Below are positions 11,193 to 16,446 of a DNA stretch of 64,000 nt, piece by piece. The stretch spans positions 186,001-250,000 of the forward strand of contig NZ_JAMXIB010000001.1 of assembly GCF_024006985.1 (NCBI RefSeq), given 5' to 3'. The DNA comes from Robiginitalea marina. Its GTDB lineage: Bacteria > Bacteroidota > Bacteroidia > Flavobacteriales > Flavobacteriaceae. The first letter of the stretch is position 1; every line of letters begins with the position of its first letter. Under the pieces are notes generated by a model. It was not told where the DNA came from. It saw only the letters and a program-made list of their open reading frames with translations, and did not search any database. Position numbers and translations under genes: made by a program.

Positions 11193-12035
11193 ATGAGAAA
11201 AATCATCCTCTTTTTATTTGCCTTAGCCCTGGCACCCTGGGGGCAGGCCCAAATTCAAACCCCGGCACCCAGCCCTGCATCCACCCTGAATCAAATGGTA
11301 GGGCTCACTGAAGTAACCGTAACCTATTCCCGGCCATCGATGCGCGGGCGTACGGTTTTCGGCGACCTGGTTCCCTATGGCACCCTTTGGCGCACCGGGG
11401 CCAATGCCAATTCAACCGTGTCTTTCAGCGACCCTGTGACCATTGCGGGAAATGAAGTGAAAGCCGATACCTATGCTATTTTTACCAAACCCGGCGCTGA
11501 TGCATGGGAAGTCTATTTTTATTCCGATACCAATAACTGGGGCACCCCGGCCGAATGGGACGAATCCAAGGTTGCCGCAATGGCCAGCGTTCCCGTGAAG
11601 AAAACCCCCTGGCCGGTGGAAACCTTTACCATGACCGTGGATGACCTTACCAACAACGGGGCAACCCTGAGTATCCATTGGGAAAACACCACGGTGCAGG
11701 TGCCCTTCGAAGTCCCCACAAAGGCCAAGGCCATGAAAAGCATCGAAACGGCTATGGGAGGTCCATCAGGCAATGATTATTTCTCCGCTGCCTCTTATTA
11801 CTACCAGGAAGGCCTCGACCTCTCAAAGGCAAAGGAATGGGTCGACAAGGCCGTGGCGATGAACCCCGACGCTTTTTGGATGGCCAGGCAACAATCGCTG
11901 ATTTACGCAAAGATGGGCGATCGGAAAGGGGCCATAGAGGCTGCCAAAAAATCCCTGGCTGCTGCCCAGAAAGCCGGCAACGCCGATTATGTGAAAATGA
12001 ACCAGGATTCCCTGAAAGAGTGGGGGGCTATGTAA
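11193..12035 (+). CDS. DUF2911 domain-containing exported protein
   Basis: A 280-residue protein. Residues 1-20 are a signal peptide (ILFLFALALAPWGQAQ). Residues 25-170 match DUF2911: ASTLNQMVGLTEVTVTYSRPSMRGR, split here as a Ser/Thr-rich strand pair, then GTLWRTGANANS and a KADTYAIFTKPG region. The last 90 residues form TPR-like helices (YYYQEGLDLSKAKEWVDKAV ... GDRKGAIEAAKKSL). This is the usual architecture of periplasmic DUF2911 proteins in Bacteroidota, of unknown function. It is transcribed alone: a promoter box stands at 11160 and a strong terminator at 12061. Confidence 0.9.
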   Translation: MRKIILFLFALALAPWGQAQIQTPAPSPASTLNQMVGLTEVTVTYSRPSMRGRTVFGDLVPYGTLWRTGANANSTVSFSDPVTIAGNEVKADTYAIFTKPGADAWEVYFYSDTNNWGTPAEWDESKVAAMASVPVKKTPWPVETFTMTVDDLTNNGATLSIHWENTTVQVPFEVPTKAKAMKSIETAMGGPSGNDYFSAASYYYQEGLDLSKAKEWVDKAVAMNPDAFWMARQQSLIYAKMGDRKGAIEAAKKSLAAAQKAGNADYVKMNQDSLKEWGAM

Positions 12036-12060: not shown

Positions 12061-12087
12061 ACCCGGGCCAGTCGCCCGGGTTTTTTT
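12061..12087 (+). terminator. Rho-independent terminator after the DUF2911 gene
   Basis: Stem ACCCGGGC (12061-12068) pairs with GCCCGGGT (12074-12081), with a 5-base loop and a run of seven T ending at 12087. It ends directly before the stop codon of the convergent symporter gene. Confidence 0.9.
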
Positions 12088-13792
12088 ATTCCCTTAAGGG
12101 AGGGGGGTTCAAGGTGCGGTCAAAAGCTTCCAGGGCAAGGGCCAGGACGATCACCAAAGTACACCCGAAGGCGTTGAGCCAGAGGTAAGACATCCAGTCG
12201 AGTTCGAAGCCGATGATGACCATGATCTGGGTAACGATGGCGGCAATAAATACCGCATTGCCCCGGACGTAACGGAAGAAAAAGGCCAGTAGGAAAATCC
12301 CGAGGACGTTCCCGTAAAAGATGGACCCTATAATATTGACCAGTTGAATCAGGTTGTCGAACAGGCTGGCCACACAGGCAATCAGGATGGCGATCACCCC
12401 CCAGAGTAGGGTAAAGAGCTTGGAGGCCCTAACATAGTGTTTGGGTTCCCGTTCCCCTTTTCTATTTCGCTTGTAGAGGTCCAGGGCCGAAATGGTTCCC
12501 AAAGCATTCAGTTCTGAAGCCGTAGACGACATGGCTGCCGAAAGGATCACGGCCAGCAGCAGGCCGATAAGGCCCCTGGGGAGGTTATTCAGGATAAAGT
12601 GGATAAACACGTAGTCCTTGTCGTTGGTTTCCACCGAAGGATCGGCTTTTAGGATGAGTTCCCGGGCCACTTCCCGGTTTACCCGTTCCATTTTATTGAT
12701 GGCCATGATTTGCTCCCTGGCGTGGACCGTGGTGTTGTATTCCTTTAGGTCCAGGGCTTTGGAAAAAGCATCCTGGGCCATTTTCTTCTCCTTTTCGAGT
12801 TCCCTGTGGGCTTCCTCCAGTCGGCTGTAATTTTCCGCAAATTCAGACTGTTGTACTGCCTGGGTAGCCGCCGGGTTGAAATTCAGGGGCGAGGCGTTGT
12901 ACTGGTAGAAGACAAAAACCATTACCCCTACCAGCAGGATAAAGAACTGCATGGGGATTTTTAACAGGCCGTTGAAAACTAGCCCGAGCTGGCTCTCCCT
13001 GACCGATTTGCCAGAAAGGTACCGCTGCACCTGGCTCTGGTCGGTCCCGAAATAGGCCAGCATGAGGAACATCCCCCCGGTAATGCCGCTCCAGAAGGTA
13101 TACCTGCTATCGGTATCGAAATCGAAATTGAGGATATTCAGTTTTTCACTGGCGCCCGCCACCTTAAGGGCCTTCCCAAAAGTGATGTCGGCAGGCAGGT
13201 AGCCCAGGATAAAGAAGAAAGCCATGAACATCCCCAGCATGATGATGAACATTTGCTGTTTCTGGGTAACGTTCACGGCCCGGGTGCCACCCGACACCGT
13301 GTAGATGATCACCAGGATACCAATGATGATATTCAGGGTCCCCAGGTCCCATCCCAAAACAGCGGAAAGGATAATGGAAGGGGCAAAGATGGTAATCCCT
13401 GCCGCCAGGCCCCGTTGCAACAGGAAGAGGATGGCTGTTAGGGTCCGGGTTTTCAGGTCGAAGCGCTTTTCCAGGAATTCGTAAGCCGTGTAGACCTTTA
13501 AACGGTGGTATATGGGTACGAAAACCAGGCAGATAATGATCATGGCCAGGGGAAGCCCGAAATAAAACTGCACAAAACCCATCCCGTCGTGGAAGGCCTG
13601 CCCGGGGGTGGAAAGAAAAGTGATGGCACTCGCCTGGGTGGCCATCACCGAAAGGCCTACCGTCCACCACTTGGCCTGGTTGCCGCCGCGGACATAATCA
13701 TCCACGTCCTGGCTGCCCCGGGTCTTCCATACCCCATAGGCCACAATGAACAGGAGGGTGGTGGACAGGATGATCCAATCGATTGCAGCCAT
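12086..13792 (-). CDS. Sodium:solute symporter (SSS family)
   Basis: A 568-residue inner-membrane transporter with about 13 predicted helices, starting with AAIDWIILSTTLLFIVAYGV. It shows SSS-family signatures: GLSVMATQASAITFLSTPGQAF near helix 2, a TVSGGTRAVNVTQKQQ loop, and ILSAAMSSTASELNALGTIS in the conserved later helix, which lines the Na+ site in vSGLT-like proteins. A charged, coiled-coil-like loop of about 60 residues (about 315-375) is inserted between helices. The substrate is unknown. It is the last gene after the PIG-L deacetylase and a 33-residue peptide, so import of a deacetylated product is a reasonable guess. Confidence 0.93.
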   Translation of the reverse strand: MAAIDWIILSTTLLFIVAYGVWKTRGSQDVDDYVRGGNQAKWWTVGLSVMATQASAITFLSTPGQAFHDGMGFVQFYFGLPLAMIIICLVFVPIYHRLKVYTAYEFLEKRFDLKTRTLTAILFLLQRGLAAGITIFAPSIILSAVLGWDLGTLNIIIGILVIIYTVSGGTRAVNVTQKQQMFIIMLGMFMAFFFILGYLPADITFGKALKVAGASEKLNILNFDFDTDSRYTFWSGITGGMFLMLAYFGTDQSQVQRYLSGKSVRESQLGLVFNGLLKIPMQFFILLVGVMVFVFYQYNASPLNFNPAATQAVQQSEFAENYSRLEEAHRELEKEKKMAQDAFSKALDLKEYNTTVHAREQIMAINKMERVNREVARELILKADPSVETNDKDYVFIHFILNNLPRGLIGLLLAVILSAAMSSTASELNALGTISALDLYKRNRKGEREPKHYVRASKLFTLLWGVIAILIACVASLFDNLIQLVNIIGSIFYGNVLGIFLLAFFFRYVRGNAVFIAAIVTQIMVIIGFELDWMSYLWLNAFGCTLVIVLALALEAFDRTLNPPPLRE

Positions 13793-13793
13793 A

Positions 13794-13895
13794 TCAAGCG
13801 TTCGCGGTCATAATGAAGTAAAAGATCAGGATATAAAGGGTATTGAGGATAAGGACCAGGGTATACTCCCGTTTCCAAACCATCTTTTCTTTCAT
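13794..13895 (-). CDS. 33-residue single-helix membrane peptide
   Basis: A short frame of 34 codons between the deacetylase and symporter genes. It starts MKEKMVWKREYTL, followed by a hydrophobic helix (VLILNTLYILIFYFIM), and ends TANA. ATG 13895 comes one base after the deacetylase TGA, and its own TGA is one base before the symporter ATG, so the three genes are tightly coupled. The positive N-terminus predicts an N-in orientation. Other SSS transporters have small membrane partners (YhdT with PanF, DUF485 proteins with ActP). This peptide is far shorter and the analogy is inference. Its position and composition argue that it is a real gene. Confidence 0.7.
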   Translation of the reverse strand: MKEKMVWKREYTLVLILNTLYILIFYFIMTANA

Positions 13896-13896
13896 A

Positions 13897-16446
13897 TCAT
13901 CCTTTAGCTCCACTGCGATCCTTTAAAGGTGCCTTCCCGATGGAAAGCATGTTTGAAAAAAGTTTGAAGGCCCCGGGAACCCCTGCCGGGAGTTCTCTGA
14001 AAAAACTCAGCCCGGTGTAAATGTAGTGACCTTTTCCATAACGGGCCACCAGTAATCCGCCTTCTTTGGGCGTTTCCCCCGGGTCGTTCATCGAGAGGAT
14101 CGGAGTATAGGCGCCATCCCACTCGTCCGGGAAGTAAAGGCCCCGTTCCTGCACCCATCCGTCAAAATCGCCCGCATCTATTGTGTTCGGAAAATTCAGC
14201 ACAGGGTGTTCCCTGTTCAGGATACGCACGGTTGCGGATTCATCCGAGACCCGGTCCCTGGAAAGCCTCAGGGGGTAAGGGGCCATATCGCTGAAGTCCA
14301 TAGAGCCACGACCACTGGTGTTGTACTGCACCACAAGTGTGCCTCCTTCCCGGATATAATCCAAAAGGAGCTCCTGTTTAAAGGGAAGTTCATCCAAAAC
14401 GTTGTAGGCACGGATCCCCACCACCACGGCATCCATTTTCTTCAGGGATTCACGGGTGATATCTGCCGGGGCGAGCGGGTGTACGGTGTAGCCGATGGCT
14501 TCCAGGTTTTCGGGGATGGCATCCCCGGCCCCCATGACGTAGCCGACATGTTGTCCCGCTTTTTCCACATCGAGGCGCACGACTTTCAGGCTTGCCGGGA
14601 GCAGGACGGTCTGGGTGGGGATGTGCTCATAGGCGATGGTGACCAGTTCTTTGTCATAAACCCGGGTATCTCCGGGAATGCCGCCGCTTAAGGTTACCCG
14701 GGGGGACACAAAGCCCTGGCTTTCCCCGGAAGGCGGGAGCAGGGTAAAGCGAATGGTTTGCTGGTTTCCTTTTCCGTCAATGGAAAACTCCTGTTTTTTT
14801 GGTTCCATGTTCCACCCTTCCGGGATTTGCAGGGAAGCGGTACCCCGGACCCTTTCGGCCTGCGATTTGATCGTCAATTGCACCTGCCGGGGATGGGCTG
14901 AGGGAAAGAGGGCCACCTGCTCGTCAAAAGCGGTAGTGACCTTTGGGATGATGTCAAAGGCCCGGTAAAGTTCCCCTTTGTCTGGCTGGGAGTACCGGTG
15001 TATCACCGGGGTTTCGAAGGTGACGGGCACCCCTTCGATCGAGAGGGAAGCGGTCAGCGTAAACGCTGCCGGGGTTTCCGGTTTCCCGATCAGGGACGGA
15101 TCCGGGGCCTTATACATGCCCAGTGTTCCCGGTTCCCGCAACCAGTATGGGGACGTCCCCGGGTGGTCTGCAGGCACGGTTACGAAAGCGTCCAGGAGTA
15201 CGCGCTCATTGGAGGGCAATCGGACGGCGCTGTCGTTGGAGCTCCCATGGTCGAGGTGGAACCGGAGCAATTCCATGTCCCACCGCGACCGGTTTACGAC
15301 TTCAAGCTGTACCGGGGCCAGCTCCCCGGGGTTTGCATAGGGGGTGGCCGATGCGGCTTCCACGTAAAGGCCCGCCACCCCTGCGATCAGGGAGGTGAGT
15401 TCTTTTGTTTTAAGCCTTTTCCAGTGGGAATTTTCCAGTCCCTGAAGGAGTTGGTAGGCCCTCAGCAGTTCGGGCAGGTGCACAGAGGGGTCGCTGAAGT
15501 TGAAGGTGGCCGCAACCCCTTCCAGAATGCTTCCAATGGGGGCCCCTCCTTCAAGGCGCCCCCAGGAAGTGTCGATCCCTTCAAAAAGGTCCCGGGTGGC
15601 AGGCATGCTGCCCTGCAGCAATTCCACGTATTCCAGTTCCGAGCCCCTGACATTGGGCCTCCCGAATCCCTGGCAGCGGTGCTGGCTGCTCGCCATTGCG
15701 GCAATCTCGTTGTTGGAAAGCCCGCGCTCCGGGTAATAAACCCCTATATCCAGGCCGATTAGCCTCGATTTATCGGCCTTCTCAAATTTTTCCGGGCTTC
15801 CGTAGAACCACCAGGAGGTATTGAAAAACAACCGGCCGGGCTGCCAGGGATCGAGACTGTCCAACTGCTCCGGGAAGGCCTTTTGGTCCGAAGCCAGGGA
15901 AAAGGCTTCCGTGCTCAAAATCGCTGAAGAGGTGTGGTGGCCGTGCGTACTTCCCGGGGTCCGGTGGTCGAACCGGTTGATGATCACGTCGGGCCTGAAG
16001 GTGCGGATCACCCGTACCACGTCGGAGAGGACCTCATCCCGGTCCCAGATCTGGAGGGTTTCATCGGGGTGCTTGGAGTACCCGAAGTCGTTGGCCCTGG
16101 TAAAAAATTGTTCTCCCCCATCGATATCCCGTGCAGCCAGGAGCTCCTGGGTGCGAAGGACGCCCAACAGTTCCCTCAGCTCCGTCCCGATCAGGTTTTG
16201 CCCCCCGTCCCCCCGCGTCAGGGAAAGGTAGGCTGTGCGGGCATGGACGTGGTTGGAGAGGTAGGAAATCAGCCTTGTATTTTCATCGTCGGGGTGGGCG
16301 GCGATGTAAAGGGCAGAACCCAGAAAATTTAGTTTCTGCAGGTCGTTGTAGAGCTTTACGGATGACGGGGGTTGAGGGGCCTGCCCCAATCCCGCCAGGG
16401 GGAAAAGGGAAATCCCCAGTAGGATCCACCGCAGGAAAACACGCAT
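13897..16446 (-). CDS. Exported PIG-L family deacetylase with C-terminal amidotransferase-like domain
   Basis: An 849-residue protein. Residues 1-22 are a signal peptide (RWILLGISLFPLAGLGQ). Residues 45-290 are a LmbE/PIG-L zinc deacetylase: AHPDDENTRLISYL provides the first zinc ligands and GSTHGHHTSSAI provides the later His. Middle beta-rich segments (about 350-640) resemble NEW3 or Ig-like modules. The last 180 residues look like a class I glutamine-amidotransferase/ThuA-like fold (VVVGIRAYNVLDEL, GGTLVVQYNTSG, ARYGKGHYIYTGLSFFREL). It presumably removes N-acetyl groups from a sugar conjugate in the periplasm. It is the first gene of a unit with the membrane peptide and symporter. The substrate is unknown. 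Confidence 0.88.
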   Translation of the reverse strand: MRVFLRWILLGISLFPLAGLGQAPQPPSSVKLYNDLQKLNFLGSALYIAAHPDDENTRLISYLSNHVHARTAYLSLTRGDGGQNLIGTELRELLGVLRTQELLAARDIDGGEQFFTRANDFGYSKHPDETLQIWDRDEVLSDVVRVIRTFRPDVIINRFDHRTPGSTHGHHTSSAILSTEAFSLASDQKAFPEQLDSLDPWQPGRLFFNTSWWFYGSPEKFEKADKSRLIGLDIGVYYPERGLSNNEIAAMASSQHRCQGFGRPNVRGSELEYVELLQGSMPATRDLFEGIDTSWGRLEGGAPIGSILEGVAATFNFSDPSVHLPELLRAYQLLQGLENSHWKRLKTKELTSLIAGVAGLYVEAASATPYANPGELAPVQLEVVNRSRWDMELLRFHLDHGSSNDSAVRLPSNERVLLDAFVTVPADHPGTSPYWLREPGTLGMYKAPDPSLIGKPETPAAFTLTASLSIEGVPVTFETPVIHRYSQPDKGELYRAFDIIPKVTTAFDEQVALFPSAHPRQVQLTIKSQAERVRGTASLQIPEGWNMEPKKQEFSIDGKGNQQTIRFTLLPPSGESQGFVSPRVTLSGGIPGDTRVYDKELVTIAYEHIPTQTVLLPASLKVVRLDVEKAGQHVGYVMGAGDAIPENLEAIGYTVHPLAPADITRESLKKMDAVVVGIRAYNVLDELPFKQELLLDYIREGGTLVVQYNTSGRGSMDFSDMAPYPLRLSRDRVSDESATVRILNREHPVLNFPNTIDAGDFDGWVQERGLYFPDEWDGAYTPILSMNDPGETPKEGGLLVARYGKGHYIYTGLSFFRELPAGVPGAFKLFSNMLSIGKAPLKDRSGAKG

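Follow-up and report, generated by a model that had tools for sequence, protein, structure and literature searches.

A 33-amino acid frame lying between a PIG-L family deacetylase gene and a sodium:solute symporter (SSS) gene of Robiginitalea marina is a real, strongly conserved gene, and it accompanies the orthologous symporter in most of the Bacteroidota examined. We regard it as likely that the encoded peptide is a single-pass membrane accessory subunit of the downstream symporter, translated ahead of it and coupled to it in translation; that the two proteins bind is something we infer rather than directly see. The window analysed here is a stretch of 64,000 nucleotides (contig NZ_JAMXIB010000001.1, positions 186,001 to 250,000).

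Locus organization and neighbouring genes

The three genes run on the minus strand in the order PIG-L, peptide, symporter (Table 1). The original prediction had placed the frame one base past the deacetylase stop and one base short of the symporter start, and the open reading frame coordinates agree with this on the minus strand. Read from 13895 to 13794, the frame comprises 33 codons followed by TGA; the plus strand of the same interval reads differently and gives a charged sequence, not a membrane peptide. A GTG at 13913 is a possible alternative start, from which the peptide would have 39 amino acids. The position of the ATG is conserved in close relatives, and N-termini are longer in some relatives.

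Table 1. Coordinates of the peptide gene, its neighbours and associated features within the window
Feature	Position	Strand	Evidence
33-amino acid single-helix membrane peptide MKEKMVWKREYTLVLILNTLYILIFYFIMTANA plus stop	13794..13895	-	ORF, 80/80 orthologous loci, purifying selection, invariant helix face
SSS sodium:solute symporter, 568 amino acids, presumed partner	12086..13792	-	TIGR00813, PF00474, SSS fold
PIG-L family deacetylase, 849 amino acids, signal-peptide-like N-terminus (read from sequence)	13897..16446	-	PF02585
1-base spacer between PIG-L stop and peptide ATG (TGA-T-ATG)	13896	-	Sequence and ORF coordinates
1-base spacer between peptide stop and symporter ATG (TGA-T-ATG)	13793	-	Sequence and ORF coordinates
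Charged helical-hairpin insert of symporter, approximately residues 319-403, between TM7 and TM8	12584..12838	-	Fused model, split SSS profile hits
Gene convergent with symporter	11193-12035	+	Relatives there in 56/70 loci

Both flanking genes proved to be secure members of the families to which they had originally been assigned. The deacetylase scored 56 bits against PF02585 (cut-off 28.2), falling far below the cut-offs of the NCBIfam equivalogs Mca, BshB1 and MshB, and the symporter scored 239.6 bits against TIGR00813 (cut-off 184) and 141.8 bits against PF00474 (cut-off 22.8). The commonest downstream neighbour of the symporter, which shows conserved synteny among relatives, lies in convergent orientation and is thus not part of the operon; we take this gene to be DUF2911-like. 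The R. marina genome encodes six SSS genes (eight matches, two genes being split in two), and for four of these no small-subunit partner was read upstream. No match was obtained when plasmids were searched with the symporter at E 1e-60.

Conservation of the peptide gene in close relatives

A symporter scan across all phyla gave 560 confirmed loci, the best 80 of which (73-85% identity) were used here. A peptide homologue lies directly upstream of the symporter in 80 of these 80 orthologous loci, its end being 0-8 nt from the symporter start in every case (1 nt in 32 loci, 8 in 15, 3 in 10, 7 in seven, 0 in seven, 6 in four, 2 in four and 4 in one). In one locus (L058) the scripted choice of start did not work; the peptide frame there contains a later ATG. 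When the window and one further locus (L083) were added to the 80, frame 0 carried no stops in 82 of 82 sequences, and each of the other five frames was interrupted in 39-81 of the 82. With 1158 close pairs taken together, pN was 0.193 against a pS of 0.745, indicating purifying selection on codons; the corresponding dN/dS of 0.06 is a rough figure because pS is near saturation. The codon-level conservation that the original prediction had suggested examining is therefore present.

As a control, hydrophobic ORFs of 25-60 amino acids ending between -15 and +60 nt from the start of a large gene were counted in the same loci. Such an ORF precedes 79 of the 79 symporters recognised by the script (of the 80 loci), compared with 11 of 267 other large ORFs. 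A chance ORF is ruled out by this control together with the 80/80 loci, the stop-free frame and the selection on codons.

Peptide sequence and conserved helix face

The peptide has a positive N-terminus (K2, K4, K8 and R9 against E3 and E10) and then a single hydrophobic segment some 20 residues long, which fits the clean single helix with a positive N-terminus first described for it. By the positive-inside rule, its N-terminus probably lies inside and its C-terminus outside. Seven residues (W7, Y11, V14, N18, Y21, F25 and M29) are invariant in 82/82 sequences and are spaced i, i+4, i+7, i+11, i+14, i+18 and i+22, i.e. along one helix face.

In a class-wide alignment of 60 members (27-52 amino acids in length, starts chosen by hand), the seven columns of lowest entropy are 7, 11, 14, 18, 22, 25 and 29, followed by 15 and 28. 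The tryptophan at position 7 is conserved in 57 of 59 sequences and the tyrosine at position 11 in 59 of 60; column 18 is occupied by L in 44/60 and by N in nine, column 29 by T in 39/60 and by M in 10, and column 21 is variable. Three of the seven face residues thus differ outside the Flavobacteriaceae, so that the face is conserved but not every residue of it.

Distribution in the Flavobacteriaceae and across the phylum

Among 199 Flavobacteriaceae genomes, the peptide was matched in 172 (E <= 1; five of these by chance, judging from context); symporter matches at E <= 1e-150 were obtained in 176. Six listed genomes gave a peptide match without a symporter at that threshold. In one of them (G122) the peptide is present and the contig breaks off within the symporter gene; G003, G016, G116, G123 and G170, the remaining five, gave peptide matches at E 0.03-0.6 with neither symporter nor PIG-L nearby, and these are therefore the chance matches. 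Within the 27 peptide-negative genomes, 14 had no symporter match (E <= 1e-40), one had only a paralogue of 36% identity, one had a C-terminal symporter fragment and 11 had a full symporter. Reading of the upstream DNA of these 11 revealed a shortened or diverged peptide in nine (L271-L275, L277 and L280-L282) and no apparent peptide in two (L270 and L276). Eight of the shortened forms (L271-L275 and L280-L282) belong to small genomes of 1.6-2.2 Mb; here the peptide is shortened at the N-terminus and the W...Y pair is partly or wholly lost, most of these peptides retaining the asparagine and tyrosine of the face.

At the level of class and phylum, symporter searches gave matches in 207 of 395 genomes of the class (E <= 1e-100) and in 95 of 247 genomes of the phylum (E <= 1e-90), the two samples overlapping. 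Upstream DNA was analysed for 99 distinct orthologous symporter genes from outside the family, a non-random set drawn from longer hit lists and chosen for family spread, in 700-base fragments with about 500 bases visible upstream (L160 and L234 denote a single gene, which is included once). Because 60 of the 99 loci went into the class-wide alignment (53 rows from loci outside the close relatives), a leave-one-family-out profile was used, with a threshold of 6.8 bits, the highest score that an antisense frame reached at any of the loci. A peptide frame scored above this threshold before 87 of the 99 symporters, in 44 of 47 families, including one (L263) that is doubtful by eye. This frame overlaps the symporter start by 4 nt in 63 of the 87 and ends 37-190 nt before the symporter in six. 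For the 12 loci below threshold, a plausible peptide was seen by eye in three (L248, L266 and L267) and none in the other nine. Homologous peptides upstream of SSS genes in Bacteroidota, for which the original prediction had proposed a search, are hence present in 80/80 close and 87/99 distant loci; these loci revealed neither the missing conservation nor the frameshifted or stop-interrupted frames in close relatives that it had named as refuting evidence.

Peptide searches covered Bacteroidota genomes. With the Flavobacteriaceae profile, a peptide-only search of the class yielded matches in 25 of 395 genomes, 13 of them within the family; the symporter adjoins the match in four of the 12 others and not in eight, and so the wider peptide family is visible mainly via the symporter. 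Four orthologous symporters (L270, L276, L261 and L234) apparently have no peptide, and in two of these loci (L276 and L261) PIG-L extends up to the symporter start. Since symporters of the same clade occur without a recognisable peptide, the latter is not strictly indispensable.

Association with the symporter

The deacetylase is itself a frequent neighbour: its C-terminal part was matched upstream in 80/80 Flavobacteriaceae loci (L003-L082), and PIG-L was matched upstream in 75 of 99 other loci (46/60, 13/20 and 16/19; two loci of the last set are from Flavobacteriaceae, and one of its genes is shared with the first set). This proximity could mean that the peptide serves PIG-L, as a membrane anchor or chaperone, and not the symporter. 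We consider this unlikely, given that, of the 24 loci in which PIG-L was not detected, 17 retain the peptide ahead of the symporter (about 500 bases upstream being visible, and L263 being doubtful), that the overlap involves the symporter start and that PIG-L appears to be secreted on its own. Retention in these 17 loci ties the peptide best to this symporter clade; a partner of PIG-L alone was rejected on the same count, and the miniature partner subunit that the original prediction held plausible emerges as the best-supported reading.

The tight spacing, mostly 4-nt overlaps outside the family, would also suit a translational leader or coupling cistron, in which translation of the short ORF matters and its amino acids do not. 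Such a role by itself is quite improbable, because purifying selection acts strongly on the amino acids and the invariant residues fall on one helix face, a pattern that rejects a leader of irrelevant sequence; moreover, direct coupling is unlikely for the six of 87 frames that end well before the symporter (the doubtful L263 possibly being among them). An additional role of the peptide in coupling is nevertheless conceivable.

Small hydrophobic peptides of such size can be toxins, and four of the 199 family genomes gave four raw peptide matches each at E <= 1. A free-standing regulatory, signalling or toxic peptide that merely happens to lie in the operon is, however, very improbable: R. marina has a single good copy (the second match has an E of 1.0), and the position before the symporter is retained across the phylum and in small genomes.

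Symporter fold and structure models

The symporter model superimposes on SiaT (5nva) with a Z-score of 43.4 and an rmsd of 2.5 over 465 residues, and it also matches NIS, SMCT1, CHT1 and SGLT1/2 by fold; its relatives by sequence are NIS, SiaT, SMVT, SMCT1, vSGLT and SGLT. Reading of the helix list of the model gives 13 predicted membrane helices (TM0-TM12). Alignments of the model to SGLT chains end at chain residues 549-552, and consequently no counterpart of TM13 is aligned in the symporter. The insert (Table 1) comprises helices at residues 353-383, 386-417 and 426-437 of the fused model. This charged hairpin, of some 85-100 residues, would by its position face outwards, at the place of the outer gate loop of LeuT-fold transporters. 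It might serve as a docking site for the PIG-L protein, which appears to be secreted.

AlphaFold models of two fused peptide-symporter readings reached mean pLDDT values of 85.7 and 84.8 overall. In these models the peptide is predicted as a helix, with a block pLDDT of about 53-72 compared with 70-97 for most of the symporter, and on account of the modest peptide values the models neither support nor exclude docking. The peptide helix (model residues 9-31) falls outside the aligned ranges of the 50 listed solved structures, all of which start at residue 31 or later; none of them covers this helix, and its fold is left unjudged by them. For 93 peptide-symporter pairs (effective number 52), the covariation signal is dominated by near-invariant columns and by the split between Flavobacteriaceae and the remainder. 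That the peptide is an N-terminal symporter helix that became separated, whether by frameshift, assembly error or recent gene split, is scarcely credible: an N-in/C-out peptide would suit the presumed N-out start of the symporter, but separate stop and start codons occur in 80/80 loci, no natural fusion was noticed in these or in the 99 non-family loci, and none of the 50 structures extends over the peptide helix.

Proposed role

In the accessory subunit reading, ribosomes would finish the peptide and then re-initiate on the symporter start (TGA-T-ATG) or, in most non-family loci, overlap it by 4 nt, and we propose that peptide and symporter would be made together in this way. The peptide would insert first, its W7-Y11-V14-N18-Y21-F25-M29 face packing against the 13 helices of the symporter within the bilayer, and might thereby stabilise the symporter or tune its activity or folding, by analogy with MAP17 and SGLT2. 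Two parallels speak for this reading: a second SSS gene of R. marina is immediately preceded by the gene of a known small subunit (TIGR03647), and the single-helix MAP17 on SGLT2 provides a structurally solved example. The symporter would probably import a product of the apparently secreted PIG-L deacetylase; the position of the latter as first gene in the operon suggests uptake of a deacetylated amino-sugar product.

SSS transporters are usually regarded as self-sufficient single chains. If our reading is true, annotation has missed a subunit of a common bacterial SSS transporter, and the pair would offer a minimal model of one helix supporting a LeuT-fold transporter.

Relation to known protein families and small subunits

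Searches with the window peptide and with sets of 36 and 60 aligned homologues gave no consistent Pfam or NCBIfam family. The window peptide itself matched only Synaptobrevin in Pfam (E 0.37). Weak Pfam and NCBIfam hits, each to between one and six of the 60 members with best E-values of about 0.001-0.005, are scattered over many unrelated families, for which reason they were dismissed as generic hydrophobic matches. When the PDB was searched with a profile of the class-wide alignment, three matches were obtained (best E 0.086), none meaningful.

Small membrane proteins beside SSS genes are exemplified by YhdT (with PanF) and DUF485 proteins (with ActP), which are larger and have more than one helix. 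The original prediction had cited both as companions of SSS transporters, but kinship of the peptide with either was not supported: no Pfam or NCBIfam match to them was found for the window peptide or the 36 members, and neither occurs among the six Pfam families hit by the 36 members or the 25 of 37 families listed for the 60 members (the 12 remaining Pfam rows concern at most one member each). TIGR03647/DUF4212 (VC_2705-type) resembles the peptide in being a small membrane protein directly upstream of an SSS symporter, but differs in its length of about 80 amino acids, its apparently two helices (read from sequence) and its different SSS gene. It was matched by neither the window peptide nor the 36 homologues, nor does it appear among the families listed for the 60 members (25/37 and 25/26); with an hhalign probability of 0.7% and no profile match, membership of DUF4212 was rejected.

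That transporters can have small accessory membrane proteins is already known. KdpF is a small membrane subunit whose partner is a P-type ATPase. Like the peptide, CydX (37 amino acids, with cytochrome bd) and AcrZ (with AcrB) are described as small membrane proteins beside larger complexes, AcrZ being 49 amino acids in length according to PMC10903887. They differ from it in their partners, an oxidase and an RND pump, and the peptide shows no consistent family match. The Pro-SMP finder paper (PMC10903887) gave no passages on symporter, sodium, Bacteroid or Flavobacter, and none of the papers listed from an open-access library dealt with a small protein accompanying this symporter clade. Small-protein catalogues may hold the peptide unnamed, and annotation may give some copies as hypothetical proteins. 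Judged by sequence, the peptide is a distinct family, with a predicted single helix, tied to one SSS clade.

A functional parallel is MAP17 (PDZK1IP1), a human protein, larger than the peptide and N-out. On human SGLT2, MAP17 places a single helix against an SSS-fold transporter, as we propose for the peptide; no sequence kinship was found between them in the PDB profile search, and the symporter, unlike SGLT2, has no aligned TM13. According to PMC10803289, the single helix of MAP17 contacts TM13 of SGLT2, and MAP17 is described as an essential auxiliary subunit aiding stability. We raise, as a tentative possibility, that this Bacteroidota-wide family of predicted single-helix subunits (27-52 amino acids) of one SSS clade is a bacterial functional counterpart of MAP17, translated before its transporter and coupled to it, and possibly supplying in trans the in-to-out helix that is absent by comparison with SGLTs. 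The peptide alignments from this analysis are ready for a family model.

The ORF preceding another SSS gene of R. marina (L115, G000:C44) scores 117.6 and 117.8 bits against TIGR03647/DUF4212, and two unrelated kinds of small SSS-linked protein therefore occur in one genome.
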